Source: Pedobacter arcticus A12
GTDB taxonomy: Bacteria > Bacteroidota > Bacteroidia > Sphingobacteriales > Sphingobacteriaceae
Direction of reading: 5' to 3'
Assembly: GCF_000302595.1 (NCBI RefSeq)
Contig: NZ_JH947127.1
Span: forward strand, 248,001-312,000
DNA: 64,000 bases
Shown here: positions 2,725-25,494 of the stretch, piece after piece
Layout: the number at the start of each line of letters is the position of its first letter
How positions within the stretch are numbered: position 1 is the stretch's first letter
Notes under the pieces: model-generated
The model's input: the letters and a program-made list of their open reading frames with translations, nothing else
What the model was told of the DNA's origin: nothing
Database searches by the model: none
Made by a program: the position numbers and the translations under genes

Positions 2725-5022
2725 TTACTTACTATACGGCCTGTCTCTCGTGACAACACCCCACGTAGCAGAAGGTTTATCGCTCATTTCAATCAGCATT
2801 TCCCCACCATTTACAATATCCTGATGAAGGATATAGGATTTCTGGTAGGGTTTTCCGTTTAAGCTTACCTTATTGATATAAATATTTTTAGCATTGTTAT
2901 TTTTAACCACCAGGTGGAATTGCTTTCCATTACCTAAATCTAAAACAGCATCGTCAACTATGGGGCTCCCAAAAACGTACATGCCATTTGCTGGGTTTAC
3001 TGGGTAAAACCCTAAAGCAGAATAAATATACCATGCCGACATTTGACCTAAATCTTCATTTCCGCACAAACCATTTGGTTTATCGGTGTAAAACAAATCC
3101 ATAATCTGCCTAACCCTTTCGGCGGTTTTATAAGGTTTCCCCGCAAATGAAAATAAATAAGGGATATGATGATTGGGTTCGTTTCCTTGGGCATACTGTC
3201 CAATTAAACCACTGATGTCCGGAGAACTACCTTCAGGTAATTTCTCTTTGGTATTGAAAAGCGTGTCCAGTTTAAGCGTAAAAGGCTCATCTCCTCCAAA
3301 AAGCTGAATCAAACCTTCTACATCCTGTGGCACCAACCAAGTGTATTGCCACGCATTTCCCTCTGTATAATCATCTTGCCTATGGACAGACGAAACAGGG
3401 TTAAAAGGTGTACGCCATTCGCCAGCGCTGGTTTTTCCACGCATAAAATTGGTGTGTTTATCAAAATAAAACTGGTAAAGTTTTGCCCTTTTGCTGAAGT
3501 AGTTATAATCTTCCGTTTTACCCAACGATTTAGCCATGGCTGCAATACACCAATCATCAATAGCGTATTCTAACCCTTTAGCTACCGATTCGATAACCTT
3601 ATCCGAGGGGATATATTTTAATTCCTGAGCGTAATCTATCCCATCAGTTTTTTGCATAGCCGAGTGTTTCATGGCTGCATAAACTTTCTCAACATCATAG
3701 GACCTGAAACCTTTTAAATAGGCATCAACAATCACAGGGATGGCATGATAACCAATCATGGTGTTGGTCTCGTTTCCCATTAAATGCCATACGGGTAGCT
3801 TTCCTTGTTGATCATAAATGGCTAAAAAAGATTTGATAATGTCATTTACCTTATCGGGATGCAAAATGGTATATAGCGGATGAAATGCCCGGTAGGTATC
3901 CCACAAAGAAAAAGTAGTGTAATTGTTAAATCCGGGCTTGGTGTACACCTTTTTATCTGTCCCTAAATAATCGCCATTGGCATCATTAAATAAAGAAGGC
4001 GCAAACATGGTATGGTACAATGCAGTATAAAAAACTGTTTTGGTTTTCTCATCGGCAGTAATCTTAATCTTGTTGAGTTCTTTATTCCAGCTGTTGTCCG
4101 CATCAGTTATTACCTTTTCAAAATCCCAGTTGGGTATCTCTGCGTTGATATTTGCTAAAGCATTGCCGCTACTTACCGGCGAAATACCCACTTTCAAATA
4201 AACAGGTTCTCCTTTTTTTACATCAAGGCGGGCAACTCCTTTAATTTTTAGTCCTTTAGCTTCTGTCCCGTTTTTTAAACTCACCGAGTCGTACACACTA
4301 AACTCATCAATAGCGGTAGAGATTTTAATTGCGAAATATACGCGTTGATCTGTAGCCCAACCTTTAGACCATCTGTAACCAACCAAAGTGTTTTTATCTA
4401 ACTGTTTGATGTAGGTTTTTACCGGGCTATCCCATCCCACACCGTCTGCTAAATCAATAATAATATTTGACTGCTCGTTTTCGCTGAAGGTATATTTATG
4501 AAAACCTACGCGTTCACTTGCTGTTAGTTCTGCCTTAATTTTGTATCTATCTAGCCAAACGCTATAATAACCTGCTTTTGCCACTTCATTATCATGACTA
4601 AAAGTAGATAAGTAACCACTGTAGGGTTTTCCTTTTGTCCCTGGTTTTAACTGTAGTTCTCCTGTAGTGGGCAAAATCAAAATATCATTTAAATCGCCAA
4701 TACCTGTACCGCTTAAATGTGTATGGGTAAAACCTAAAATGGTATTGCTACTGTAATGATATCCGCTGCACCAATCCCACCCCTCGGGAATGTTTTTTGG
4801 ACCCAATTGTACCGCACCGAAGGGTACATTTGCACCTAAAAACACATGGCCATGTTCGGCTGTGCCAATATAGCTGTCCACATATTTTGTTAAATTAATT
4901 GAATCGGGAAGTTTTGTTTTCTGATGGCGACTTGCGCAACTACCTACAAACAGTCCAGCAATCAGGGTTAAAACAACAGTAGCTCTGCAATTTCTAAATA
5001 TCATTTTTTTCATATTTATCAT
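2725..5022 (-). CDS. GH92 alpha-mannosidase, lipoprotein (last gene of the N-glycan run)
   Basis: Calcium-dependent exo-alpha-mannosidase of family GH92, 765 residues, the family's usual length. The N-terminus is a lipoprotein signal peptide ending FVGSC (Cys29), so the enzyme is probably lipid-anchored in the periplasm or at the surface. Family motifs are YIGTAEHGHVFLGANVPFGA near the start, GWDWCSGYHYSS, THTHLSGTGIGDL, YTEGNAWQYTW and, near the C-terminus, GNEDLGQMSAWYIYSALG. The N-terminal block with HLSGTGIGDL resembles the alpha-1,2-mannosidase group; that specificity is inferred. It is last in the minus-strand run, 207 bases after the GH125 gene, with a dispersed repeat in the gap. ATGs at 5022, 5013 and 5004 are all possible starts. 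Confidence 0.92.
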   Translation of the reverse strand: MINMKKMIFRNCRATVVLTLIAGLFVGSCASRHQKTKLPDSINLTKYVDSYIGTAEHGHVFLGANVPFGAVQLGPKNIPEGWDWCSGYHYSSNTILGFTHTHLSGTGIGDLNDILILPTTGELQLKPGTKGKPYSGYLSTFSHDNEVAKAGYYSVWLDRYKIKAELTASERVGFHKYTFSENEQSNIIIDLADGVGWDSPVKTYIKQLDKNTLVGYRWSKGWATDQRVYFAIKISTAIDEFSVYDSVSLKNGTEAKGLKIKGVARLDVKKGEPVYLKVGISPVSSGNALANINAEIPNWDFEKVITDADNSWNKELNKIKITADEKTKTVFYTALYHTMFAPSLFNDANGDYLGTDKKVYTKPGFNNYTTFSLWDTYRAFHPLYTILHPDKVNDIIKSFLAIYDQQGKLPVWHLMGNETNTMIGYHAIPVIVDAYLKGFRSYDVEKVYAAMKHSAMQKTDGIDYAQELKYIPSDKVIESVAKGLEYAIDDWCIAAMAKSLGKTEDYNYFSKRAKLYQFYFDKHTNFMRGKTSAGEWRTPFNPVSSVHRQDDYTEGNAWQYTWLVPQDVEGLIQLFGGDEPFTLKLDTLFNTKEKLPEGSSPDISGLIGQYAQGNEPNHHIPYLFSFAGKPYKTAERVRQIMDLFYTDKPNGLCGNEDLGQMSAWYIYSALGFYPVNPANGMYVFGSPIVDDAVLDLGNGKQFHLVVKNNNAKNIYINKVSLNGKPYQKSYILHQDIVNGGEMLIEMSDKPSATWGVVTRDRPYSK

Positions 5023-5229: not shown

Positions 5230-6654
5230 TTAAACCTTCAATAAATGTGGTTTCTCTTGATAAATCTTCCATAAAAACTCTCCGAAGATGGTATTGGCCC
5301 AAGCAAACCACTTTCTGGTAAAATTAGTAGCATCATCCTTATGAAAAGATTCATGCACAAAGCCTGTATCCGCATGTGTTTTCATCAACAGCTGTATACT
5401 TTCTTTAATCTCCTGATCATTGGTACTGGTTAAACCACGCATGATAATACCCAAGGGCCATACCATATCTTGTCCCACATGCGGACCGCCAACACCGGCT
5501 GCAGCTTTACCTTTAAAATAGAACGGATTATCTTCTGATAAACAATAGTTTCTGGTGTTGATATAGATTGGGTCACTTGGTTCAACAGCATCTAAATAAG
5601 GTAAAGAAACCAAACTAGGTACATTTGCATCGTCCATTAAATTGTAGCTTCCCATACCGTTTATTTCAAAAGCATACATTTCTCCATATTTGGGATGCTT
5701 TACAATGGCATGTTCTTGTATCGCCGATGCTACTTCGCTGGCTAAATCATTAAGTTCTTGTGCAAGAGAATTTTGCTGATGAATTTCTTTAAGCATGATC
5801 GCCGCCTGTTTTAAACTTACTACCGCAAAAAAGTTCGACGGAATTAAGAAAGGGTAAATAGTAGCATCATCACTAGGACGAAACATGGAGCAAATTAAAC
5901 CATTGGGTTTAACCGGAAAACCGTAGCCCATCATAGGTAGCGTATCTGTTGGTTTTAAGGTTTCCCGTCTAAAATGATACGGCCCTAAATTATCTTTACG
6001 TTGCTGTTCTTTAAATACTTTTAACGTTAAGCGGATGGCTTTAACCCATTCCTCATCAAACGGACTTTGATCTTTACTGGTTTTCCAATAATGATAGGCT
6101 AAACGAATTGGATAACATAAGGAATCTATTTCCCATTTTCGCTCATGCACTCCCGGTAGCATTGTGGTTTCATCTGTTTTCCACTCGCCTAATTTATTTT
6201 CATCCTTATAAAAAGCATTGGCATAAGGGTCTTTTAAAATATATTGCGTTTGCCTGTTAATTAAGCCTGCAACCAAATCTTTTAAAGGTCTGTCTTTATT
6301 GATCTCGGGAAGATAAGGCCAAACCTGTGCACTACTATCGCGTAACCACATGGCATCAATATCTCCGGTAATGATGTAAGAATCGGGCTTATTGCCCTTC
6401 ATCTCAAAATAAACCGTGGTATCAAGCGTGTTAGGGAAACAGTTTTCAAACAGCCATCCCAATTCTGGGTTTTTTACATTTTTCTTAAACTCTTTGATCA
6501 TTGCTTCCACACTTTTGCTGTAGAAATGTCTTTTAGCTAATGGTGGTCGCTGACTGGTATAGCCCGCTAACATGCCACTTGCGTAAGCAAACTTATTCAA
6601 CACGATCCCACCTGTTAAAATTCCGGTAGTTTTTAAAAATTCGTTCCTTTTCAT
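5230..6654 (-). CDS. GH125 exo-alpha-1,6-mannosidase
   Basis: Glycoside hydrolase family 125 (formerly DUF1237), 474 residues, whose members remove non-reducing alpha-1,6-linked mannose. The diagnostic block TGDIDAMWLRDSSAQVWPY is present near residue 100, along with YANAFYKDE, CSMFRPSDDATIYPFLIPSN and GGPHVGQDMVWPLG. The N-terminus (KRNEFLKTTGILTGG, then AYA) looks like a Tat-type or ordinary signal peptide, with KR in place of RR, so the enzyme is probably periplasmic. It starts 27 bases after the GH2 stop. In the operon it would open the alpha-1,6 branch left after GH92 trimming. Confidence 0.93.
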   Translation of the reverse strand: MKRNEFLKTTGILTGGIVLNKFAYASGMLAGYTSQRPPLAKRHFYSKSVEAMIKEFKKNVKNPELGWLFENCFPNTLDTTVYFEMKGNKPDSYIITGDIDAMWLRDSSAQVWPYLPEINKDRPLKDLVAGLINRQTQYILKDPYANAFYKDENKLGEWKTDETTMLPGVHERKWEIDSLCYPIRLAYHYWKTSKDQSPFDEEWVKAIRLTLKVFKEQQRKDNLGPYHFRRETLKPTDTLPMMGYGFPVKPNGLICSMFRPSDDATIYPFLIPSNFFAVVSLKQAAIMLKEIHQQNSLAQELNDLASEVASAIQEHAIVKHPKYGEMYAFEINGMGSYNLMDDANVPSLVSLPYLDAVEPSDPIYINTRNYCLSEDNPFYFKGKAAAGVGGPHVGQDMVWPLGIIMRGLTSTNDQEIKESIQLLMKTHADTGFVHESFHKDDATNFTRKWFAWANTIFGEFLWKIYQEKPHLLKV

Positions 6655-6681: not shown

Positions 6682-9315
6682 TTAAGGCTGGATATTTATG
6701 TAATAGGCTGTTCCGTTCCAGCCTTTAATTTCAATAGCAAGTTTTGTATCGCCCTGAGCGGAATACTCCATTTTAATTTGCTTTTGCTCGCCCGGTAACA
6801 CTGTAAGGTAATTCTCTGTATAAAAAACAGGCAATACTCTTTCTTTTGTTTGTGCATTCACCAAGGATATCCGATTGAAAAACGACAAGTTGTTGCCAAC
6901 AGCGTTCTCTAGGTTTAAAACAATTTTCCCCTCAGCATCTCGGTTTGCTTTTGCCTGCAATTTTACATTTGCAAGAGTCTGTAATCCAGAATATTCCTGA
7001 TTTGCATCTGGCAACCAATAAACGTTTTGATCGACCACATTTTTGTTCATATCTTCTAACTGAAGTACCAGAAAAGCACCTTTATTTTTTGAAACCCGAT
7101 CCGTTTCCTTTTTGATAGCGAAGGATTTTTTGGACGATGACGCATCTATTTCTACCATTAGCTTTGAGATAAGGTGTTCTTTTCCGTCCATATCAAAAAT
7201 TTTGACCAACAACATTCGGTTTCTAACTTGCTCAAAGCTGTTGTTTACCAAATTAATCATTCCGTCAACGGGGTTATACATAGCGTGTAATGATGCAGAC
7301 CCATTTTTTAAACCATAAAAGCAAGCATTCTGATCCAAATAATAATCATACATCTGTCCGCGTAAGGCAGTCCATGGGTTTTGCGTTTTCCAAATAATTA
7401 CCCCAGTGTACCACCTCCACATATTTGCGCTAAACCCTTCTATTAAAGCTCTATATTGGTTGTAATTTACTAGCTGTGCTTTCTCTGTAAAATCCTGTAC
7501 ATCCCGTGGAGCGCCATAAGCATTTACAAATTCGCCGTAACTAATGTATTTGTGATAATCCCATACAGAATCAATCTTTTCGGTTTGGGTGGCTGGATCA
7601 AACTGTGGGGCAATCATATTTTCTTTGGGGATAAACCTTTTTAAAGATTCATAATCGCCCACGCCTACCGAACCTATTTCTGAGTTGAAAGGCCAAGTTC
7701 TGTAATTCCAAAAACGCTCAATGGGTTGGATTTCATAGGGGCCGTCGCCGTTTCCGCCAATTTCATTTAAAGACATTTCGTTTGAGTTCGAAAAATCAAT
7801 AAACCAACGGGTTCCGTCTAATTTTGGGATAATGGAATCTCTTAAAGGAATTAAAATATCATCGGGAGGCATAATTTCATTTCCTCCGCACCAAATCGCC
7901 AAAGAAGCATGGTTACGCACCATTTTAATTTGGTCTGCCGCCGAGGTTAAAAACAGTTGATGATCATCGGGATATTTTCTCCGGGCATATTGATCATCTG
8001 TTTTTTTAGGATCTAACCACCTACCATTGGCATCGCCAGACATCCAAAAATCTTGAAACACCAACATTCCATATTTATCACAAGCATTGTAAAACTCTGG
8101 GCGTTCAATTAAAGCGCCACCCCACACCCGAATCAGGTTCAAGTTCATCTCTTTATGAAACCTCACTTCCGTGTCATAACGGGCATCTGTAAAGCGCAAC
8201 ATCGCATCAGAAATAATCCAGTTACCACCTTTTATAAATATTTTTTGTCCGTTGACTGATACTTGCTGGCTTTTGGTTTCACTGTTCCACGTATGCTGAA
8301 TTTCTCTTACGCCCACCTGTAACTTCTGAATGCTTGATGCAGGTTTTCCGTTTGCTACGAATTTGATTTCCATAGGGTACAGAAAAGCATCTCCGTACCC
8401 ACTTGGCCACCATAATTGAGGATTTTCCAATTCAAAATCATCCAAGCTTATTGTTGTGGTAGCAAGTGGCGCTAGTTTTACCTTTTTAGAGATGGTTTGC
8501 CCAGCAATGCTGTATTGCACAACCCCTTTAACTACTTTAGTGGCTGTATTATTCAGTTCGGCAGAAACTTTAATAATGGCTGGCGCCTGATTTCCGCTTG
8601 GTTTACGTTTACCGGGTACCAAAGTAACTACATGCGGATTGGACAGTTTAACCATCCCCGTTTTTTCAATGGTGACTTTATCCCATATCCCAGTATTCCG
8701 ATCGCGGATGGGCTGAATCCAATCCCAACCAGCTACGTATTGATGCGAAACATTTTTTGCGATTGTTCCGTCGCCAGCCTGCCCGCCATTAGGTTTGCCC
8801 ACTGGGTTTGGTGGATAAACAATTACCGCTAATCTGTTTTTGCCATTTTTATTTAAAACCTTGGTGATGTTATAGGTTTGACGTAAAAACATGCCCTCAT
8901 GTGTTTTGGAATTTAGTTTTTGTCCGTTTACAAACACATCACAACTGTAATTAACACCTCTTAAGTGAAGCCAAACTTGCTCTTCGTTACTTGCGTTTTC
9001 TTCAAAATCTTTAACAAACCAGTAGGTATAAGTTGCACTCCCGGTATCGTATATGTCTGCTATTTTTTGGTTGTTCATCCCATAAAAAGGATCAGGAACT
9101 TCTTTATTTTGAAGCATTGTAGTTAAAACCGTTCCGGGAACGACGGCTTTTTTCCAATTGCTTAAGGTGTATTTGAGAGAGGAAATATTTTCTCCCTGAT
9201 CTTTTACCTGCGTAATTGGCGCACACAGCCATCCATCATTCAGCTCATATTGGTTTTGAGCCAACGCGGAAAAACATAGCAATAAAACAAAGAAAACAGT
9301 ATAAATAAATTTCAT
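6682..9315 (-). CDS. GH2 family beta-mannosidase-like glycosidase
   Basis: Five-domain GH2 exo-glycosidase of 877 residues from the ATG at 9315, where the signal peptide MKFIYTVFFVLLLCFSALAQ begins; an ATG seven codons upstream is less likely. Order seen: N-terminal sugar-binding sandwich (WLHLRGVNYSCDVFVNG), immunoglobulin-like domain, then the TIM barrel (GGNWIISDAMLRF, NLNLIRVWGGALIE). The acid/base Glu480 is in WCGGNEI and the probable nucleophile Glu546 in FNSEIGSVG. This layout is shared by beta-mannosidases and exo-beta-glucosaminidases. The neighbours (GH92, GH125, glycosylasparaginase) favour cleavage of Man-beta-1,4-GlcNAc in the N-glycan core, which is an inference. Confidence 0.85.
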   Translation of the reverse strand: MKFIYTVFFVLLLCFSALAQNQYELNDGWLCAPITQVKDQGENISSLKYTLSNWKKAVVPGTVLTTMLQNKEVPDPFYGMNNQKIADIYDTGSATYTYWFVKDFEENASNEEQVWLHLRGVNYSCDVFVNGQKLNSKTHEGMFLRQTYNITKVLNKNGKNRLAVIVYPPNPVGKPNGGQAGDGTIAKNVSHQYVAGWDWIQPIRDRNTGIWDKVTIEKTGMVKLSNPHVVTLVPGKRKPSGNQAPAIIKVSAELNNTATKVVKGVVQYSIAGQTISKKVKLAPLATTTISLDDFELENPQLWWPSGYGDAFLYPMEIKFVANGKPASSIQKLQVGVREIQHTWNSETKSQQVSVNGQKIFIKGGNWIISDAMLRFTDARYDTEVRFHKEMNLNLIRVWGGALIERPEFYNACDKYGMLVFQDFWMSGDANGRWLDPKKTDDQYARRKYPDDHQLFLTSAADQIKMVRNHASLAIWCGGNEIMPPDDILIPLRDSIIPKLDGTRWFIDFSNSNEMSLNEIGGNGDGPYEIQPIERFWNYRTWPFNSEIGSVGVGDYESLKRFIPKENMIAPQFDPATQTEKIDSVWDYHKYISYGEFVNAYGAPRDVQDFTEKAQLVNYNQYRALIEGFSANMWRWYTGVIIWKTQNPWTALRGQMYDYYLDQNACFYGLKNGSASLHAMYNPVDGMINLVNNSFEQVRNRMLLVKIFDMDGKEHLISKLMVEIDASSSKKSFAIKKETDRVSKNKGAFLVLQLEDMNKNVVDQNVYWLPDANQEYSGLQTLANVKLQAKANRDAEGKIVLNLENAVGNNLSFFNRISLVNAQTKERVLPVFYTENYLTVLPGEQKQIKMEYSAQGDTKLAIEIKGWNGTAYYINIQP

Positions 9316-9398
9316 AGCATATATAATTGAAGACACAAAACCTTGCTTATTCTTAGCAATTGTTTTGTACGTCGTGGTATAATGTGGTTTTCAATAGA

Positions 9399-10160
9399 TC
9401 AATAGTCTTTTACATTAGCATTTGCAGCAATTTGCACTGCCATTTTTAGCATCCGCACATCTTCTGAATGGATGGTATTGTTGACGTAAGTATCTGTTAC
9501 GTTGGTAAAATTAGGATGGATAAAATTCATTTTACTTCCTTCTCTCTCTCTTAAAGAAGCATGAAACTCAGAACAGCCAGTCATTTTAAACAAGGACTGA
9601 ATATTGCTGCGCCTGATTCCGCTGCCCGGCATAATAATAATTCGCCCCTTTGCTGCCTGTTGCAATTGGCTAATTAGCTGAACACCTTCTGGCGCTGTGG
9701 GATATTGCCCGGAGGTCAAAATTCTTTGGCATCCCAGCTCTATCAACTGTTCCATTGCCTTAAAAGGATCTAAACAACAATCAAAAGCTCTATGAAAAGT
9801 AACCTGCATCGGGTAAGCCAGTGCAATCAGTTGTGCAACTTTAGCTAAGTCAATTTGTCCGTCGGTGTTTAACATTCCAATCACTACACCATCGCAAGCT
9901 AAGTCTTTACACAATTTGATATCGCTTTGCATGATTTCAAATTCTTCCTCTTTAAACAAAAAATCTCCGCCACGCGGACGAATAATCGGGAAAATTGGAA
10001 TCTCAAATGACTCTCGGCATTTTTTTATGGTGCCGTAAGATGCTGTTGTGCCTCCTTCATAAAGGTTCGCACAAAGCTCAATCCGATCTGCACCACCTTT
10101 AACCGCGGCTTTGGTGGTGGCAAAATCTGATGTTGCAATTTCTATTAAAGGTGTATTCAT
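9399..10160 (-). CDS. cutC: CutC family TIM-barrel protein
   Basis: A 253-residue single-domain protein matching the CutC family, with motifs IEIATSDFATTKAAVKGGADRIELC at the start (read in two blocks), PIIRPRGGDFLF, VTFHRAFDCC, RILTSGQYPTAPEG and MPGSGIRRSN. There is no signal peptide, so it is cytoplasmic. The family is annotated as copper homeostasis on old genetic evidence, but its fold is an enzyme-like TIM barrel with a phosphate-binding type loop. It lies 21 bases after the glycosylasparaginase and 83 bases before the GH2 gene, inside a glycan degradation run with no other metal gene nearby. A catalytic role in sugar catabolism is therefore possible but unproven. Confidence 0.9.
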   Translation of the reverse strand: MNTPLIEIATSDFATTKAAVKGGADRIELCANLYEGGTTASYGTIKKCRESFEIPIFPIIRPRGGDFLFKEEEFEIMQSDIKLCKDLACDGVVIGMLNTDGQIDLAKVAQLIALAYPMQVTFHRAFDCCLDPFKAMEQLIELGCQRILTSGQYPTAPEGVQLISQLQQAAKGRIIIMPGSGIRRSNIQSLFKMTGCSEFHASLREREGSKMNFIHPNFTNVTDTYVNNTIHSEDVRMLKMAVQIAANANVKDY

Positions 10161-11234: not shown

Positions 11235-12104
11235 TTAAAGCCATAAACTCGCTGCTCCTATTAAAGCACTATTTTCACCCAATGATGCAATACATATTGG
11301 AATATTAACCGCACTCCGCTTTAAAGTTGCTTTCAAAGAATCTTCAAACCAATGAAACGCATTTGCGATATTGCCCCCAAGCACAATGGCTTCTGCTTTT
11401 TCTTTTTTAGAAAAGAAGACTAGAAAATTTCCTAAATTTTCTCCAAACTCCTCAAAAATATCATTGGAAATACTTTGGTCTTTTATACGCTGGCAAAGTT
11501 CTTTCACATTGCTAATGGGTTGATGATTCGGGTACATTTCCGTAAACCGTTTTGTGAACCACCTACTAGCAATATAATCTTCAGCGATACTATCTAAAAA
11601 AGGAGTATTCCATAAAGCACATTCCTCTACTGTTTCATTTTTATAAACTGCCGTACCTAAACCGGTTCCTAGTGTTAAACCGATTACGCGTTGGTAACCA
11701 ATTGCCGATCCGCTAAAAACTTCTCCTTGCAGAAAGCAAGCAGCATCATTTTTCATTTGTATTGCCGTTGGCTTAATATTCAGCGCTTCCGCCAATAATT
11801 CTTTCACGTTATAACCGTACAAAGCGTCGTATTTGTCTTGATTTTGCATTAAACTGACTCCTTTTTCATAATCAAAAGGACCGGGCATGGCAATACCGAT
11901 ACGCACTGTGGCTACATTAGCCTCTTTATACGACTGTTTGATAGTAGTTGCCCAATCGGCGATGATTTCTGTCAGCGGGGCTTTTGAGTCTACAGTCCTT
12001 CGAAAATAGGTTTGCGCTATCATTTCTTTGCGATGTAAGTTTATTAAACCCACCGTGATATGAGAACCACCTATATCTATACCTAAAGCATTAAAATTGT
12101 CCAT
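11235..12104 (-). CDS. ROK family sugar kinase
   Basis: Cytoplasmic sugar kinase-like protein, 289 residues from the ATG at 12104, which immediately precedes the ATP-binding GIDIGGSHITVGL. An upstream ATG at 12161 would add 19 residues of non-family sequence. The predicted catalytic Asp lies in MKNDAACFLQGE, and GLTLGTGLGTA and VLGGNIANAF are further kinase blocks. The CxCGxxGCxE zinc motif of classical ROK glucokinases is absent. The context suggests phosphorylation of a released sugar such as GlcNAc, mannose or glucose; the substrate is not shown by the sequence. The gap to the upstream GH92 gene is 125 bases. Confidence 0.87.
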   Translation of the reverse strand: MDNFNALGIDIGGSHITVGLINLHRKEMIAQTYFRRTVDSKAPLTEIIADWATTIKQSYKEANVATVRIGIAMPGPFDYEKGVSLMQNQDKYDALYGYNVKELLAEALNIKPTAIQMKNDAACFLQGEVFSGSAIGYQRVIGLTLGTGLGTAVYKNETVEECALWNTPFLDSIAEDYIASRWFTKRFTEMYPNHQPISNVKELCQRIKDQSISNDIFEEFGENLGNFLVFFSKKEKAEAIVLGGNIANAFHWFEDSLKATLKRSAVNIPICIASLGENSALIGAASLWL

Positions 12105-12229
12105 TCTTGATAATTGGTTATACCTTAAAAATCCGTAGACGGAGAAAGGTTTATGGAACAAATATAAAAACTAAAAGCATTACTCAAAATTATGTACTAC
12201 TTAATAAAATATCACAGTGAATGGCAAGC

Positions 12230-14527
12230 TTATTTTTTAGCTCTACTTAAGTCTGTAGAAAAAGAGTAAGGAAAGTCTGTTGCGTTGATTCCGCGTTTTT
12301 CGTTTGGATTTGTCGATAGGTTAAAATCAATCTTCATCCCCTTCATCATCTCTGTATGACTGATCCAGTTTCTACTATACAACTTACCATTCAGTTTCAT
12401 ACTTTCGATATACTTATTGCTCTCGCTATTATTCGGCGATTCAATGACTACCTCCTTTCCGTTCTCTAAACAAATCGTGACTTTTTTAAAGAGCGGTGCT
12501 CCAATCACATATTGATTTACAGCCGGCGTAACCGGATAAAAGCCCATTGCAGAAAACACATACCATGCAGAGGTTTGTCCATTATCTTCATCGCCACAAT
12601 AACCATCTGGTGTGGCTTGGTACATTCTGTTCATTATTTCACGCACCCAATATTGGGTTTTCCAAGGTTTGCCAGCATAATTGTAGAGGTAAATCATGTG
12701 CTGGATGGGTTGGTTGCCATGTGCGTATTGCCCCAGATTAGCAATCTGCATTTCTCTAATCTCATGGATTACAAAACCATAAGCACTCTCATCGAAAATG
12801 GGTGGTAAAGAAAAAACAGAATCTAATTTGTCTGTGAATTTTCGGTTTCCGCCCATCAAATCAATCAAACCCTGCACATCCTGAAACACGGACCAGGAAT
12901 AATGCCAGCTGTTTCCTTCCGTAAAGGCATCGCCCCATTTGAACGGGTTAAAGGGTGTTACAAACTTGCCGTTTTTATATTTGGGACGCATTAATCCAAT
13001 GGAAGGGTCAAATAAGTTACGGTAGTTCTGACTTCTTTTGGCGTAAAGCTCAATATCTGAAGTAGGCTTGTGTAAGGCTTTCCCTAACTGATAGATTGCG
13101 AAATCATCATAAGCATATTCTAAAGTTCTTGCCGCATTCTCATTCACGTTAACATCATAAGGAACATAGCCCAACTGATTATAGTCATTTACGCCAGCCC
13201 TGCCTACAGCGGTAATTGGACCTTCATTATTTGCACCATGCAACAAGGCTTGGTACAGTTTCTCAATGTCATAACCACGCAAACCTTTGATATAGGCATC
13301 TGCCACTACCGATGCGGAATTATTTCCAATCATGATATTTGCATAACCTGGGCTCGACCACTCTGGCAACCAACCACCTTCTTTATAATCGTTGATTAAA
13401 CCTTCCTGCATTTCTTTGTTGATAGACGGATAAACCAAGTTTAAAAATGGATAAAGCGCCCTAAATGTATCCCAAAACCCAGTGCCGGCGAACATATAAC
13501 CGGGCATTACTTTACCGTTGTAAGGACTGTAATGCACAATTTGATTGTCTTTATCTAGCTCATAAAGTTTGTTAGGAAAAAACAGCGTACGGTACAAGCA
13601 AGAATAAAATGTTCGCATTTGATCGGTAGTGCCACCTTCTACCTTTATACGTCCCAGTTTTTCGTTCCATAAAAATTTTGCTTTCTCTGCCGTTTGGTCA
13701 AAACTATCTTTGCCCAGCTCTCTTTTTAAGTTGAGGTCTGCCTGCTCAAAACTGATAAACGACGAGGCTACTTTTACATGAACCTGCTCTCCTTTTTGTG
13801 TTTTAAAACCGATAACGGCACCAGCATGGTTTGCACTTAATTCCAAGTTATTATCGATAAGCTTGTTGCCTGCCCAAGTATGTGCCAGCGTAAAAGGTTT
13901 ATCAAAATAGATGACGAAATAATTTTTAAAATTCTCCAGCTTTCCACTACTGTACCTGGTTGAGTAACCAATTATCTTATTTTCTTCGGGTATGATTTTG
14001 ATGTAAGAGCCTTTATCAAAAGCATCAATCACCACAAAAGAGCTGTCAGTTTTTGGGAAGGTAAACCTAAATTGTGCCGTTCTTTCTGTGGGTGTAAGTT
14101 CGGTGGTTACGTCTGCATCAGCTAAATAAACGCTGTAATAATAAGGTTTGGCAATTTCCGCTTTATGCGAAAACCAGCTTGCCCGCTCGGTCTCTGTAAA
14201 TTTTAGATGTTTGGTTACCGGCATGATGGAAAATTGCCCGTAATCATTCATCCAAGGAGATGGTTGATGCGTTTGCTTAAATCCCTTAATTTTATCGGCA
14301 GTGTAAGTGTACATCCAACCATCTCCCATATTACCAGTTTGTGCTGTCCAAATGTTCATCCCCCAAGGAACGCCAACTGCGGGATAGGTGTTTCCATTAG
14401 ATAGATCGGGTTTGGATAGCGTTCCCATTAAAGGGTTCACCAAACTGACTGGGTTTATGCTTTGTGCATTTGAATAAGAACATATAAACAGACAAATGAA
14501 AGCAGTAACAACAGGGATGGGCTTCAT
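12230..14527 (-). CDS. GH92 alpha-mannosidase (first gene of the N-glycan run)
   Basis: A second GH92 enzyme, also 765 residues but clearly diverged from the first. The signal peptide is MKPIPVVTAFICLFICSYSNA, cleaved before QS, with no lipobox, so it is probably a soluble periplasmic protein. Family blocks are PAVGVPWGMNIWTAQTG, THQPSPWMNDYGQF, FTEGNSWHYSWSVFQD, HGNQPIQHMIYLYN and GDEDNGQTSAWYVFSAMG. The substrate-pocket blocks differ from the other copy (TYTADKIKGFKQTHQ in place of GWDWCSGYHYSS; GNQPIQH in place of GNEPNHH), which suggests another mannosidic linkage, for example alpha-1,3. It is the promoter-proximal gene. No regulator or transporter gene adjoins it. Confidence 0.92.
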   Translation of the reverse strand: MKPIPVVTAFICLFICSYSNAQSINPVSLVNPLMGTLSKPDLSNGNTYPAVGVPWGMNIWTAQTGNMGDGWMYTYTADKIKGFKQTHQPSPWMNDYGQFSIMPVTKHLKFTETERASWFSHKAEIAKPYYYSVYLADADVTTELTPTERTAQFRFTFPKTDSSFVVIDAFDKGSYIKIIPEENKIIGYSTRYSSGKLENFKNYFVIYFDKPFTLAHTWAGNKLIDNNLELSANHAGAVIGFKTQKGEQVHVKVASSFISFEQADLNLKRELGKDSFDQTAEKAKFLWNEKLGRIKVEGGTTDQMRTFYSCLYRTLFFPNKLYELDKDNQIVHYSPYNGKVMPGYMFAGTGFWDTFRALYPFLNLVYPSINKEMQEGLINDYKEGGWLPEWSSPGYANIMIGNNSASVVADAYIKGLRGYDIEKLYQALLHGANNEGPITAVGRAGVNDYNQLGYVPYDVNVNENAARTLEYAYDDFAIYQLGKALHKPTSDIELYAKRSQNYRNLFDPSIGLMRPKYKNGKFVTPFNPFKWGDAFTEGNSWHYSWSVFQDVQGLIDLMGGNRKFTDKLDSVFSLPPIFDESAYGFVIHEIREMQIANLGQYAHGNQPIQHMIYLYNYAGKPWKTQYWVREIMNRMYQATPDGYCGDEDNGQTSAWYVFSAMGFYPVTPAVNQYVIGAPLFKKVTICLENGKEVVIESPNNSESNKYIESMKLNGKLYSRNWISHTEMMKGMKIDFNLSTNPNEKRGINATDFPYSFSTDLSRAKK

Positions 14528-15088: not shown

Positions 15089-15547
15089 TTATGCCAATAA
15101 TTCAATTGCCTCCACATTTTTCTGCATGCCTGCATGGTCAACAGCCATTAAACCTTTATGGTCCCTCATCATCTTATCTGCACCATGAGCCAGTAAAAGT
15201 TTAACTAAATCATTTTTACCAAACATACTCGCAAACATGAGCGCAGTTCCACCGTTTCCGTGTGTTAAATTTACATCTGCTCCGTTCTCCAATAATAACT
15301 GCGCAATCTCAAAATACCCTTTAAAACAAACGCCCATCAACGCAGTGTTACCACCATTGTCTTTAGCATTTACATCAGCTCCATTTTTTAATAGCATTTG
15401 GGTAGCGGCAAATTGGTTATTATAGGTAGCAATTATCAATGGCGTATAACCCTTTTCGTCCTTAAAATTAATATCCATTTCTTCTGCTAAAAGCGATTCA
15501 ATCAGATCAGTGTCGCCTGTTCTTGCAGCGTCTATTAGTTGTTTCAT
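15089..15547 (-). CDS. Ankyrin repeat protein linked to catalase
   Basis: A 152-residue protein made of four to five ankyrin repeats and no signal peptide. Repeat starts are seen at KGYTPLIIATYNNQ, GGNTALMGVCFKGY and GGTALMFASMFGKN, each ending in a LLLENGADVN-type turn. Small ankyrin proteins beside catalase genes are known from other bacteria (AnkB with KatB in Pseudomonas aeruginosa), where they support catalase activity. Here it is the second gene after the catalase, 45 bases downstream, with a terminator-like hairpin between them. A partner role for the catalase is inferred from position. Confidence 0.88.
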   Translation of the reverse strand: MKQLIDAARTGDTDLIESLLAEEMDINFKDEKGYTPLIIATYNNQFAATQMLLKNGADVNAKDNGGNTALMGVCFKGYFEIAQLLLENGADVNLTHGNGGTALMFASMFGKNDLVKLLLAHGADKMMRDHKGLMAVDHAGMQKNVEAIELLA

Positions 15548-15552
15548 ATCAT

Positions 15553-15584
15553 TAAAAAATAGGGGAACAACCTCTTGCTCCCCT
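15553..15584 (-). terminator. Terminator-like hairpin between catalase and ankyrin genes
   Basis: Read on the minus strand, a 10-bp stem with one mismatch (AGGGGAGCAA with TTGTTCCCCT, 15561-15584) is followed by a run of six T. It comes directly after the catalase stop and 6-14 bases before the ankyrin start, so it probably reduces, rather than abolishes, transcription into the second gene. Confidence 0.65.
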
Positions 15585-15592
15585 TAGTTAAA

Positions 15593-17770
15593 TTAAGCTG
15601 GAATTTTACCTTGTTTTTCTCTTTCAAAAAAACGATGATTACCTATTGCTTTGATAAAGTTCTTACTGAAGTTTTGATCAGCAATACTTCCAATTAATAA
15701 GCCCGCATCCTTCACTTTATCCAAATTTTTATTCAAATAATTAGCTACATAGCTAATTTTTACCAATTCAATAGCGTTACCATCTACGGCAATAGCTTTG
15801 CAATGCAAAAAAGCTTCGTCAATAAAATGAACTGCTTTAGGTGTGTTTTTTAATTTATCTATACTTTTATCGCCCGCAGGCACATAAATAGCATCTACCA
15901 AAACGGATGCAAATGTTAAAAAGCTGTGATCCACTTTTACATCTTTTCCTGCACTGTCTTTTATAAACCCTGAATGTGGAGCAATTACTCGTACCACCGC
16001 TCCTTCTGCTTCTAACGCGTTCTTCATGTCAGCAAGAGACTTTGAATCTACCCCTTCTGCTACTAAAAATGCAATCTGGCGAGTTTTTATATTTCCTTTT
16101 ATCGTATTTGCCATACTTAGAGCAGGCGAGCTTTTAAGCTTCTGCGTAACTTTGATGGGTTGATAATCATCAGGATTTGCGTCGGCACCAAACTGGTGAT
16201 TAATGGGTTGTTCTGGCTGTTTAACCTGTAAACCTAAACCATCGGCAACTTTTTGCGCTAAACCCTTATCAACCTGACTAATCAATCCGACAACGCGTTG
16301 GCGAATTTCCGGAATATCCACTTTACCCAATTCAAAACAAAATGCTTCGACTAAATGGTTTTGTTCTGGTTCTGATAAACTATTGTAAAACAATGTTGGC
16401 TGACTAAAGAAATCCATAAAACTTTTACTTCTGGCTCTTACCTTATTTGCATCAACACGTTCTTGATAACTTGCAAAACCACCTTCACTCACTTTTGCTT
16501 GTTCTGGATAACCTTGCGACATGGAGTTTGGGTGATAAGCTGTTTTACCCTTGTTTATTTCCATACGGGCAATACCATCACGTTGGTTATTATGAATTGG
16601 CGCTATTGGTCGGTTGATCGGGATTTCGTGGAAATTTGGTCCACCTAAACGACTTAATTGAGTATCTGTATAAGAAAACAATCTGCCTTGCAATAAAGGA
16701 TCGTTGGTAAAATCTATACCTGGAACTAAATGACCTGGGTGAAAAGCAACCTGTTCAGTTTCCGCAAAGAAATTATCAGGGTTACGGTTCAAAGTCATTT
16801 TACCGATTATTTGTACAGGCACAATCTCTTCTGGAATAAGTTTGGTTGGATCCAATAAATCGAAATCGAATTTATGCTCATCTTCTTCCGCCACAATCTG
16901 AACACCAAATTCCCACTCGGGATATGCGCCACCTTCAATTGCTTCATGTAAATCACGACGATGAAAATCGGGATCTTGACCGTTAACTTTCTGAGCTTCG
17001 TCCCAAACGACCGAGTGTGTACCTAAAAGTGGTTTCCAATGAAATTTTACGAAATGAGCTTTTCCTTCATCGTTAATCAAACGGAACGTATGTATTCCAA
17101 AACCTTCCATCATTCTTAAGCTTCGCGGAATCGCTCGATCACTCATCAACCACATTACGTTGTGCATGGTTTCTGGAGAAAGCGAAACGAAATCCCAAAA
17201 AGTATTATGCGCAGAGGCAGCTTGTGGAATTTCGTTATGCGGTTCTGGTTTAACCGCGTGAACTAAATCTGGAAACTTAATCGCATCCTGAATAAAAAAC
17301 ACAGGCATATTATTTCCTACTAAATCATAGTTACCTTCTTCGGTGTAAAATTTAACGGCAAAACCACGTACATCGCGAGGGATGTCTGCTGAACCACGGA
17401 AGCCAGCAACAGTAGAAAATCGCGTAAAAACTGGTGTCTCACGCGATGGATCAATTAAGAAAGCAGCCTTGGTATATTTTTTTAATGAGTCGTCGTAAAC
17501 TTTAAATACGCCATGTGCGCCAGAACCTCTAGCATGTACAATTCTCTCAGGAATACGTTCGTGATCAAAATGTGTAATCTTTTCTCTTAAAATGAAGTCT
17601 TCAAGAAGTGTAGCTCCACGTTCTCCAGCTTTTAAGGAGTGATTGTCATCATTGATTCTGAGTCCTTGGTTAGTCGTCATTTTTTGATTTTGGCTATCTT
17701 CCATATTACTTGAAAGGTCTTCCAATTTCTGACTATTGTTCTGTTTTTTATCCGATTTTGTGCTTTTCAT
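15593..17770 (-). CDS. katE: Catalase, large-subunit (HPII/KatE) type
   Basis: Heme catalase of 725 residues that disproportionates hydrogen peroxide. The length marks the large-subunit clade. Residues 1-40 are a hydrophilic extension; the core carries the distal histidine His79 in [13 protein letters not shown], the asparagine in [11 protein letters not shown] and the proximal heme block [14 protein letters not shown]. From about 560 on there is the extra C-terminal DJ-1/PfpI-like flavodoxin domain typical of HPII ([22 protein letters not shown]). There is no export signal, so it is cytoplasmic. The ankyrin gene follows. No OxyR-type site was recognised upstream. Confidence 0.95.
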
Positions 17771-22168: not shown

Positions 22169-22202
22169 AAAGGCTTCGGATTTTTATCCGAAGCCTTTTT
22201 TT
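22169..22202. terminator. Bidirectional terminator shared by helicase and ligD genes
   Basis: A perfect 12-bp stem, AAAGGCTTCGGA (22169-22180) with TCCGAAGCCTTT (22187-22198), a 6-base loop and T runs on both sides. The ligD stop codon lies in its loop (22184-22186), so the last codons of ligD form one arm of the stem. Confidence 0.88.
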
Positions 22203-24724
22203 GTTAACGTTAAATCGGTGCTTTTAACTTTCCACTTTCCCACTTTCAACTTCTTCAGCGCTTCCTTTAAATTCTGCTTCTTCTTAAAAAGATCAGCCCA
22301 AGGGTCTTTTCTTTTTTTGATTAAGTCAGGAACATTAAAAATATCATAGTCCGTCATGTCTAAACTTTCATCCAATTCATCCCAATTTAGCGGAAAAGAA
22401 ACGGTGGCGCCAGGTCTTGGTCGGGCAGAGTAAGGAGCTGCAATGGTTTGCCCTCTCCTATTCTGTAAAAAATCGATGTATATTTTGCCTTTTCTTTTAG
22501 AAGGTGAACGTTCTAAACTTGTATTATCCGGACTGCCTTCATGAACTTTTTGAGCAATGAAGTGAGCAAATTCTTTCACAAAATCATAGTTGTAAGCACC
22601 AGCAATGTAAGTGTAAATATGAATGCCGGTTGAACCTGATGTTTTCACATAAGCGGTAACTCCCATTCCGTCAAAAACAGCTTTCACTACCAAAGCCAGT
22701 TTTACCACTTCCTGAAAATCATTGCCATCCGGATCCAAATCAATCACCATAAAATCGGGGTTTTCTGGTTTTTTGTAAGTGCTTAACCACGGATTAATTT
22801 CAATACAACCTAAATTTGCCATATAAAGCAAGGTCGCTTGATCATTACAAACTAAATAATCGATGTCTTTACCGTTACTTTCCGAATGTACCACCGTGGT
22901 TTTCGCCCATTTCGGGATATGTTTCGTATCTACGTCTTTTTGAAAAAATCCTGGTTTTGTAATTCCACTTGGATGGCGATTTAAAGAGAGCGGCTTATCC
23001 TTCAAATAAGGCAACATCTGCTCACCAATTTGATCGTAATAATTCAACAAATCTCCCTTAGTGATTTTTTCTTTGGGCCAATAGATTTTGTCTAAATTAC
23101 TTAAATTGACTTTTTTGGACTTGTAGGTTTTGGTGATATCCTGTTTCCCGGAAAAGTTATGCTCATCTTTTTTGTTAATTTTCACTTTTTCCTCCTTTAC
23201 AGAATCTTTGTCTTTATCTTCTCTTAAGCCTTTAAAAACTGGGTGACGCAAGTGTTCGTCGTTTGTGCATTCGCTATAGGTTACTTCGCAAACCAGCTCG
23301 GGCTTTATCCAAGTAACGGCAGATTCCTGTGCTACTTTCCCTAAAACCGGCTTTTTCTGCGTCTGCAAAGGTTCCATCTTCGCAAAAAGGCTTTTCAAAA
23401 CTTTTTCGGTAAAACCTGTCCCACAATTACCGATGTATTTCAATTTCTTATCGTCGCCCAAGATCCCTAAAACCAAAGCTCCAAAATATTTCCGGCTTCC
23501 GGCTGGTTTTGTAAAACCGCAAATAATCGCTTCCTGACTGTTACTGAATTTAAATTTCAACCAGGACTGACTGCGTTTGCCTGCATAATATTCATCATCT
23601 TTCTTTTTGGCGATGATGCCCTCCCATTTTTCTTTTTCCGCTTTCTTGGAAGCCTTTTTCCCCTCTCCAACAAAATGATCGTTATAAATCACATCTTTTA
23701 AACTGTATTTTTTTAACAGTTGCGCTAACAATTTTTTACGCTTTAAAAGTGGGATTTCGGTTAAATCGTTACCGTTAAGCGCCAATAAATCGAAAGCAAA
23801 GTACTTTAATGGCGCTTTACTTTCTTCATAATGTTGAAGCAACTGAAAGTTGTCATTTCCTTTTTTATCTAGCGCAACCAATTCACCATCTAAAACACAT
23901 TCTTCTTCAATATGCCCCAGTTCTTTCACAACAAGCGGGTATTTATCACTGTAATTCTTGCCGTTTCGCGTGGTTAATTTTACTTTTTTTCCCGCTTTGG
24001 CTACAATGCGATAACCATCTAATTTGCGTTCAAAAATCCAATCTTCATCATCGAAAATATTTTCAGACAGCGTTGCCAACATCGGACTGTATTCTTTTAT
24101 CGGTTTTGCTTTTTCTGTAGTTTCTTTAGGTTGTACAATTACCGGCTCTTTCGCTTTTTTAAAATCTTTTCCGGCTTTTTTAATTTTAGCATCTATTAAA
24201 TCCTCAGCCGAAAACTTTTTATGCACTGCTCCTTCATCATCATGCTTAATCAAAAGCCAAGCGTTTTGCTCTGCATTCCTCAATTTCACCAAGGCAAATT
24301 CCCCTTGTAGTATCTTCCCTTTTAAAGCAAATTTTAAGTTACCCGTTTTTAAACCTTCCTCTAAAGTTTTAACATCGTCTTTTCTAGTTTTAGCTAAAGA
24401 AGTGTAAAAGCCTTCATCAAAAACACTAACAGTACCTGCGCCGTAATTTCCTTTCGGGATTTCCCCTTCAAAATCTTTATAACTGTAAGGATGATCTTCA
24501 ACCATCATTGCTAAACGCTTATCTTTTGGATTTAAAGACGGACCTTTCGGTATCGCCCAGCTTTTTAAGACACCGTCAAGCTCTAACCTAAAATCATAAT
24601 GCAGATGCGAGGCATGATGTCTTTGCACTACAAAACGCAGTTTTTTTGTCGTCTTGGTTTTACCTTTCTGAGGTTCTTTAGTCGATTCAAAATCTCGCTT
24701 TTTATTGTACTTATCTAAACTCAT
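22184..24724 (-). CDS. ligD: Multifunctional DNA ligase D (non-homologous end joining)
   Basis: An 846-residue ATP-dependent ligase with three modules in the order phosphoesterase - ligase - polymerase. Residues about 30-180 are the 3'-phosphoesterase (RHHASHLHYDFRLELDG). The ligase core has the adenylation lysine Lys234 in FERKLDGYRI and later ECVLDGELVALD. The primase-like polymerase fills about 545-830, with FMVIDLDPDG for metal binding and KTSGSTGIHIYTY. It is two bases after ku, so the two are translationally coupled. The last 20 residues (from KVGKWKVKS on) are unlike family ends and come from a simple-repeat tract plus the terminator stem. Together with Ku it repairs double-strand breaks. 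Confidence 0.96.
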   Translation of the reverse strand: MSLDKYNKKRDFESTKEPQKGKTKTTKKLRFVVQRHHASHLHYDFRLELDGVLKSWAIPKGPSLNPKDKRLAMMVEDHPYSYKDFEGEIPKGNYGAGTVSVFDEGFYTSLAKTRKDDVKTLEEGLKTGNLKFALKGKILQGEFALVKLRNAEQNAWLLIKHDDEGAVHKKFSAEDLIDAKIKKAGKDFKKAKEPVIVQPKETTEKAKPIKEYSPMLATLSENIFDDEDWIFERKLDGYRIVAKAGKKVKLTTRNGKNYSDKYPLVVKELGHIEEECVLDGELVALDKKGNDNFQLLQHYEESKAPLKYFAFDLLALNGNDLTEIPLLKRKKLLAQLLKKYSLKDVIYNDHFVGEGKKASKKAEKEKWEGIIAKKKDDEYYAGKRSQSWLKFKFSNSQEAIICGFTKPAGSRKYFGALVLGILGDDKKLKYIGNCGTGFTEKVLKSLFAKMEPLQTQKKPVLGKVAQESAVTWIKPELVCEVTYSECTNDEHLRHPVFKGLREDKDKDSVKEEKVKINKKDEHNFSGKQDITKTYKSKKVNLSNLDKIYWPKEKITKGDLLNYYDQIGEQMLPYLKDKPLSLNRHPSGITKPGFFQKDVDTKHIPKWAKTTVVHSESNGKDIDYLVCNDQATLLYMANLGCIEINPWLSTYKKPENPDFMVIDLDPDGNDFQEVVKLALVVKAVFDGMGVTAYVKTSGSTGIHIYTYIAGAYNYDFVKEFAHFIAQKVHEGSPDNTSLERSPSKRKGKIYIDFLQNRRGQTIAAPYSARPRPGATVSFPLNWDELDESLDMTDYDIFNVPDLIKKRKDPWADLFKKKQNLKEALKKLKVGKWKVKSTDLTLTKKGFG

Positions 24725-24726
24725 TG

Positions 24727-25494
24727 CTAAGCTCCTTTCTTGCTTAAACTTTCCATTAATTGATCGTACAAATCGTCGCTTTTCGCTTTCTGCGGTTTTA
24801 GTTTTTTAATAGTAGGGCGTTTTCCTTTAGCTTTAGCTTTAATGATTTTCAGCAACTGATCGTGATAAGTATCTTTATAAGCTTCGATATTAAAATCCGA
24901 AGTATACTGTTTTATCAAAGCCAGGGCAACATCTAATTCTTTTTTTGGGATATTAACGTCATCGGGCGTATTTATTTCGGTGGTTTTACGTATCTCCTGA
25001 GCGAAACGAATTCTCGAAATTACCAGCGCTTCATCTTTTGGATAAATTACACATAAAGCTTCTTTTTGCCTTAACACAAATGAACCGAAACCAGCCAATT
25101 TGGTTTTCTCTAAGGCTTTATGCAAAAGTGCATAAGCCTTTTCGCCATGTTTAGCTGGCTCCGCATAGTAAGAAGTTTCGAAAAGCATCGGGTTGATGTC
25201 TGTTGCTTTCACAAAATTATCTATCGCAATGTTTTTACTCTTTTCTGGACTGGCGTCCTCAAAATCCTGATCTTCTAAAACCACATAATCATCCTTAATC
25301 AGATAGCCCTTCACAATCTTTTCGTAAGGAACTTCTTTTCGTGTCTTTTCATTGATCCGTTGGTATTTAATATGTTGGTGATCTCTACTGTCCAACATAT
25401 CTAGGTCCAAATTGCTGCTTTCAATAGCAGAGTAAAGTTTAATAGGGATGTTTACCAAACCAAAGCCGATTGTTCCGTTCCAGATAGATCTCAT
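24727..25494 (-). CDS. ku: Ku protein (non-homologous end joining)
   Basis: A 255-residue bacterial Ku homologue, the usual length. It begins with the family signature MRSIWNGTIGFGLVNIPIKL and contains YQRINEKTRKEVPYEKIVKG. A basic, lysine-rich C-terminal tail (KAKGKRPTIKKLKPQKAK) follows the core beta barrel; such tails bind DNA or ligase. It forms a homodimeric ring on DNA ends and recruits LigD. Ku is the first gene, and ligD starts two bases after its stop. Confidence 0.96.
   Translation of the reverse strand: MRSIWNGTIGFGLVNIPIKLYSAIESSNLDLDMLDSRDHQHIKYQRINEKTRKEVPYEKIVKGYLIKDDYVVLEDQDFEDASPEKSKNIAIDNFVKATDINPMLFETSYYAEPAKHGEKAYALLHKALEKTKLAGFGSFVLRQKEALCVIYPKDEALVISRIRFAQEIRKTTEINTPDDVNIPKKELDVALALIKQYTSDFNIEAYKDTYHDQLLKIIKAKAKGKRPTIKKLKPQKAKSDDLYDQLMESLSKKGA

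Follow-up and report, generated by a model that had tools for sequence, protein, structure and literature searches.

A CutC family protein of Pedobacter arcticus associated with glycosylasparaginase and probably acting in amino-sugar catabolism

Gene content of the cutC locus

The window, a stretch of 64,000 nucleotides of the Pedobacter arcticus A12 genome, contains a cutC gene at positions 9399-10160. The gene is read from the minus strand, a point on which the sequence-only reading was silent, as a single open frame that extends from an ATG to a stop codon and encodes 253 aa; the plus strand of the same interval contains no open frame. The product matched the Pfam profile PF03932 with an E value of 1.3e-68 and 230.9 bits (curated cut-off 23.3) over profile positions 3-200 of 202, and a profile search of the whole genome returned this copy only. 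With 237.8 bits, it stayed below the curated cut-off (311) of the NCBIfam equivalog NF008603 (copper homeostasis protein CutC); judged by profile score, it is classed as a member of the family and not as this equivalog. Choline TMA-lyase, a different protein sharing the gene name, was dismissed as an identity.

The gene is part of a run of seven genes on one strand (Table 1), which are transcribed in the order GH92, ROK, AGA, CutC, GH2, GH125 and GH92 and separated by 68, 27, 21, 62, 27 and 207 bp, respectively. The placement of a CutC gene inside a glycan operon, between glycosylasparaginase (AGA) and GH2 genes, as described in the sequence-only reading, was thus confirmed, with a full-length cutC flanked by both genes on the same strand. 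For the ROK gene, an ATG located 19 codons into the open reading frame represents an alternative to the TTG start. The ROK protein matched its profile weakly, and the zinc motif usual in this family (C-x-C-G-x-x-G-C) was missing on inspection by eye.

Table 1. Genes of the seven-gene run, with coordinates in the window
Feature	Position	Strand	Basis and remarks
GH92 protein, first in run	12230..14527	-	profile match
ROK-family sugar kinase, divergent	11235..12161	-	profile match; TTG start from ORF tool
Glycosylasparaginase (AGA, PF01112), 341 aa	10182..11207	-	Pfam and PDB matches; Tat-like N-terminus (RRKFLQ)
CutC family protein (PF03932), 253 aa	9399..10160	-	ORF, Pfam profile, predicted (beta/alpha)8 barrel; no signal peptide seen
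GH2 protein, beta-mannosidase-like	6682..9336	-	Mannosidase_ig and Ig_GlcNase domains
GH125 alpha-mannosidase family protein	5230..6654	-	profile match
GH92 protein, last in run	2725..5022	-	profile match; 207 bp after GH125

The run brings together a set for N-glycan degradation, consisting of alpha-mannosidases, a beta-mannosidase-type GH2 protein and AGA. Going by the family names, these genes would fit the stepwise trimming of a high-mannose N-glycan to its GlcNAc-Asn stub. GH92 and GH125 are listed as alpha-mannosidase families of N-glycan degradation in the available part of a review (PMC10154615). N-glycan degradation loci of Bacteroides and other bacteria share GH92, GH125 and GH2 with the run. 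Unlike these loci, the run additionally contains AGA, ROK and CutC, and no SusC/SusD gene was present among the genes examined beside it. Term counts in the accessible text of the same review and of a plant N-glycan paper gave no mention of either asparaginase or CutC, and no near match to the seven-gene run was found among the plasmids searched.

The assignment of the AGA gene was verified against the PDB. Its product matched best to 3ljq, an N(4)-(beta-N-acetylglucosaminyl)-L-asparaginase (E 5e-101), whereas isoaspartyl peptidases matched with E values of 4e-35 or weaker, which places it nearer to the glycosylasparaginases. The predicted nucleophile is Thr201, preceded by Asp200, and the beta chains in the PDB align from query residue 201. 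Amino-GlcNAc is an intermediate of the AGA reaction, and the first product is held to hydrolyse spontaneously. The products named in the part of the source consulted are aspartate, ammonia and GlcNAc (PMC5134220).

Conserved residues and fold of CutC

Nine residues (E7, R26, E28, G37, R61, H123, D127, G151 and H200) were conserved to 98-100% over 169 CutC rows and to 95-100% when three groups (AGA-linked, unlinked and other-record) were considered separately. At the level of sequence, such near-invariance argues for one chemistry common to all CutC groups. The three motifs highlighted in the sequence-only reading (PIIRPRGGDF, TFHRAFD and MPGSGIRRSN) were all present, and R61, G65, F67, H123, D127, G179 and G181 were 94-100% conserved (169 rows); the claim of conservation did not hold for the RRSN part. 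An identity as NanE-type epimerase, an enzyme that uses a catalytic lysine, was rejected, as none of the lysines was invariant across the 169 rows.

An AlphaFold2 model of CutC (pLDDT 89.7) showed a (beta/alpha)8 barrel, in which the majority of the conserved residues lie in or just after the strands. It matched human CUTC (3iwp) with Z 36.0 and an rmsd of 1.9 over 230 residues, in agreement with the earlier assignment to the TIM barrels, and CutC structures in general were the top fold matches (Z 28-36). The protein thus resembles human CUTC and Shigella CutC (1twd/1x7i) in sequence (3iwp, E 4e-60), in fold (Z 36 and 35) and in its conserved residues. The nearest folds outside the family were the (beta/alpha)8 barrels of MfnB (MJ1099; Z 21.1) and hexulose-6-phosphate synthase (Z 20.4), a likeness of the modelled overall fold at 13-15% identity. 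They were followed, at Z 17-19, by RuBisCO-like proteins, PdxJ, KGPDC and PRAI. Such barrels mostly bind phosphorylated ligands; with many of them at Z 17-18, these neighbours of the model cannot name a substrate.

CutC neighbourhoods in Bacteroidota

PF03932 was matched in 130 of 392 Bacteroidota genomes, and from 128 of them 131 regions around CutC, none longer than 20 kb, were collected. A weak match (genome G330) and a broken one (G037) do not figure among the regions, while the genome counts given below include G037 and omit G330. Sixteen of the 131 regions were shortened by contig ends. The genome lists for AGA position and for the presence counts were entered by hand, which may have introduced single transcription errors.

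AGA of the window type was present in 64 of the 131 regions (from 64 genomes, spread over 37 of 72 genera and 11 of 23 families), compared with about 0.6 regions expected by chance, assuming one AGA copy per 4.2 Mb, and with none of nine control regions. The centres of AGA and CutC were less than 1.5 kb apart in 57 of these 64 regions. Unsupervised clustering of the neighbours likewise ranked AGA first (63 regions, 54 of them with direct adjacency), and each of the next clusters covered at most 20 regions. A separate scan yielded 12 named loci, several of them on short contigs, and five of these contained AGA. AGA was found upstream on the same strand or in divergent orientation (the latter mostly in one family, f4), and downstream once; on Hymenobacter plasmids, where GH92 and ROK lie alongside, the AGA and CutC genes share 4 bp. 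A Tat-like N-terminus was seen in 65 of 68 AGA genes. One of the smaller neighbour clusters was argS, with 18/131 Bacteroidota regions; the E. coli cutC gene likewise has argS nearby.

Other markers were less frequent, with GH92 and GH20 in 14 regions each, nagB in seven, ROK in three, GH125 in one and the window-type GH2 in 12 (13 by profile search). Given these counts, AGA is the main partner of CutC, and not GH92 or ROK. The check put forward in the sequence-only reading, co-occurrence with glycosylasparaginase and GH92 above chance, therefore gave a very strong result for the former and a far weaker one for the latter (14/131, against about 1.5 expected, as estimated by hand from 46 CutC genomes). 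The pairing of CutC with a ROK kinase, which the same reading had suggested, was discarded as a general feature of Bacteroidota because it was seen in 3/131 regions. AGA or another glycan marker occurred in 78 regions, whereas none of the markers searched for was found in 53/131, a large minority; the outcome named as refuting in the sequence-only reading, a lack of glycan genes around CutC in most relatives, was thus not observed. One Parabacteroides plasmid locus with CutC had no amino-sugar gene.

Co-occurrence of CutC and AGA across genomes

Window-type AGA (E up to 1e-65) was present in 108 of 129 CutC genomes and in 46 of 263 others (odds ratio 24); counted by genus, the values were 63 of 73 with CutC and 19 of 106 without. 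The paralogous isoaspartyl-peptidase type, by contrast, was found in 66 of 129 CutC genomes and 116 of 263 others (odds ratio 1.3, p 0.20), and serves as control for Fisher tests that ignore phylogeny. The co-occurrence of CutC and AGA is thus very strong in both position and presence/absence, and specific against the paralogue. AGA does not need CutC, since 46 genomes carry AGA without it.

An inherited gene order without function, or a housekeeping protein (e.g. one for metabolite repair) riding in the operon, could leave the two genes side by side as well, and would agree with the wide distribution of CutC beyond glycan loci, which takes in E. coli and human, and with the 53/131 regions devoid of markers. 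This explanation is improbable in view of the variable arrangement of the pair, the at least 19 changes between the AGA-linked and unlinked labels on the CutC tree (FastTree, 168 rows; gain and loss being indistinguishable), the genome-level co-occurrence with AGA but not with its paralogue, and a similar GH92-AGA-CutC set in an alphaproteobacterium (Novosphingobium, locus L183).

Evaluation of the copper annotation

CutC is counted as a copper gene in at least one copper survey, as far as its available text goes (PMC6769254). In the window protein, the cysteine pair of the proposed Cu(I) site is incomplete, with Cys30 present and Ala9 in the other position. Cys30 was 98% conserved, and a cysteine was found at position 9 in 59% of the 169 rows. 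Position 9 aligns with Cys31 of human CUTC (human numbering of the proposed copper site), from which the window protein differs in this residue and in its location in an N-glycan operon beside AGA. In agreement with the sequence-only reading, no copper or metal-transport gene was present among the genes examined in positions 1-25494, and the copper/heavy-metal (HMA) domains of the genome were located on another contig. Motif scans of the 131 Bacteroidota regions detected HMA motifs in just two regions and P-type ATPase (P1B) or multicopper-oxidase motifs in none.

In E. coli, the sRNA gene micL overlaps cutC. A publication, seen in part, attributes the copper tolerance obtained by cutC overexpression in this species to the sigma-E response (2019, PMC6338753); the primary paper is reportedly Guo et al. 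2014. Conversely, knock-down of CutC by RNAi or siRNA raised copper sensitivity in worm and human cells, and human CUTC bound Cu(I) weakly, at micromolar concentrations, according to the accessible sections of a review (2024, PMC11083455). These two observations and the annotation itself favour a copper-homeostasis protein that is co-transcribed with glycan genes by chance. With Ala9 in place of a cysteine that is itself variable across the family, the scarcity of copper genes in the neighbourhoods and the sigma-E explanation for the overexpression effect, such a function is very improbable for the window protein. The copper role of CutC is poorly supported, in line with the earlier remark that it is thinly based.

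CutC loci outside Bacteroidota

Twenty-one plasmid loci from outside Bacteroidota, and later the Novosphingobium locus L183, were picked for annotation and variety, and not at random, from 65-67 matching records; one E. coli chromosome was examined in addition, and enteric plasmid records were left out. Amino-sugar genes (nagA, nagB/SIS, GH20, ROK/NagK or MurQ-like) were located within 7-8 kb of CutC at 16 of the 21 loci, including all 13 alphaproteobacterial ones, with three loci (L160, L161 and L166) scored on a kinase or SIS gene alone. By annotation, none of these genes occurred in four 50-kb control stretches on four of the same plasmids. No amino-sugar gene was found at the Cetobacterium, Entomospira and two Enterococcus loci or at the E. 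coli K-12 cutC locus, and the Embleya locus gave no clear call, which leaves five of 21 outside the amino-sugar count.

The kinase pairing proposed in the sequence-only reading was recovered in several Proteobacteria, where CutC abuts a ROK or NagK-type kinase gene. In Sinorhizobium and Qingshengfaniella, CutC overlaps a ROK gene that, among the NCBIfam models, matches GlcNAc kinase best, though below cut-off; in Asticcacaulis and Pseudoalteromonas, it precedes a NagK-like kinase gene. The L183 locus, chosen because it contains both AGA and CutC, has a TonB-receptor gene, GH92 and AGA on one side and, in divergent orientation to these, CutC with a NagB-II-type SIS gene and nagA, and thereby joins the AGA context of CutC to its nag context. 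Many NagA/NagB/NagK operons lack CutC; the literature searched contained no description of CutC as a part of them, although it adjoins such genes in Alphaproteobacteria.

Viewed locus by locus, genes for amide or peptide hydrolases (M81, amidase, M17, M19 and PF01112) lie near CutC outside Bacteroidota, which may point to amide-linked sugars as substrates. With only 31% identity to the window AGA, the L176 gene of PF01112 was not taken to be a glycosylasparaginase, and the asparaginase of L166 belongs to another family (PF06089). Genes for M81 (MlrC-type) metallopeptidases recurred near CutC in Alphaproteobacteria, often together with GH20 (L157, L158, L160, L162, L171 and L175), and none was annotated in the four plasmid control stretches.

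Proposed role of CutC

CutC is widely distributed, including human and E. coli, and its function is unsettled. Based on its gene context and sequence, the window protein is probably a cytoplasmic enzyme of amino-sugar (GlcNAc) catabolism that belongs to the same pathway as AGA. By association, there is good support for a cytoplasmic role in amino-sugar breakdown, and all support comes from association, conservation and fold. The proteins of the run would act as follows. GH92 and GH125 would strip alpha-mannose off N-glycans, after which the GH2 enzyme would take off beta-mannose. The Tat-exported AGA would then cut the GlcNAc-Asn stub into aspartate and amino-GlcNAc, the latter giving GlcNAc and ammonia; the freed sugar would enter the cell, where CutC may act alongside the general GlcNAc enzymes (kinase, NagA and NagB). 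The order of the pathway, its compartments and a catalytic function of CutC are what we infer from these data. CutC and AGA probably reside in different compartments because AGA has a Tat-like N-terminus and none was seen in CutC.

The reaction itself can be given as a guess, and a rather doubtful one: CutC may attack the AGA product, or the 6-phosphate of this product, at the anomeric carbon, for instance by hydrolysis or ring-opening of the glycosylamine, which would prevent its build-up or glycation. Putative acid/base groups are the Glu, His, Asp and Arg residues at the barrel end, and the Gly-rich loops that follow strands 6 and 7 could accommodate a phosphate. An unlikely extension of this idea is that CutC proteins in general, including human CUTC, are enzymes whose substrate is the glycosylamine left by the deglycosylation of Asn-linked GlcNAc (1-amino-GlcNAc or its 6-phosphate) or a close amino-sugar intermediate from the same process. 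If true, this would constitute a so far unrecognised step, and the whole family would carry a mistaken copper label.

Several findings count against an amino-sugar role, namely the 53/131 regions without markers, the E. coli, Enterococcus, Cetobacterium, Entomospira and Parabacteroides loci without an amino-sugar gene, the spontaneous hydrolysis of the AGA product, the separation of exported AGA from cytoplasmic CutC, and the copper sensitivity upon knock-down. Moreover, no missing step points to the reaction of CutC, because the clusters often contain a complete kinase-NagA-NagB route.

CutC might also act on GlcNAc or GlcNAc-6-P generally, as a mutarotase, epimerase or isomerase, with AGA being just one source of GlcNAc. 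Such an activity would match the alphaproteobacterial loci, in which CutC is paired with GlcNAc-type ROK/NagK-like kinases, GH20, nagA and nagB while AGA is mostly not close, and the nearest folds, which are barrels taking phosphorylated ligands. It is nevertheless unlikely, as CutC has no invariant lysine comparable to that of the NanE epimerase and its neighbours in Bacteroidota are dominated by AGA. The link to AGA is preferred over one to general GlcNAc genes because AGA is found in 64 of 131 regions, compared with 14 for GH20 and seven for nagB.

A role in the AGA pathway would caution against scoring CutC as a copper gene, and the strong, paralogue-controlled link to AGA narrows the candidates for its substrate to a few amino sugars. 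In the literature searched, which covers few subscription papers and preprints, no paper mentioned both CutC and glycosylasparaginase, and no report of a link between them was found.

Other features of the window

Three further features were noted in the window. An ice-binding-like protein (PF11999) is encoded at positions 51-581; its match starts at profile position 37, and the gene is perhaps cut by the window edge. At positions 15089-17770, an ankyrin-repeat protein adjoins a long catalase that carries a DJ-1/PfpI-like domain at its C-terminus. Positions 22184-25494 contain LigD, with ligase, phosphoesterase and primase-polymerase domains, beside Ku, which together represent a bacterial end-joining pair.
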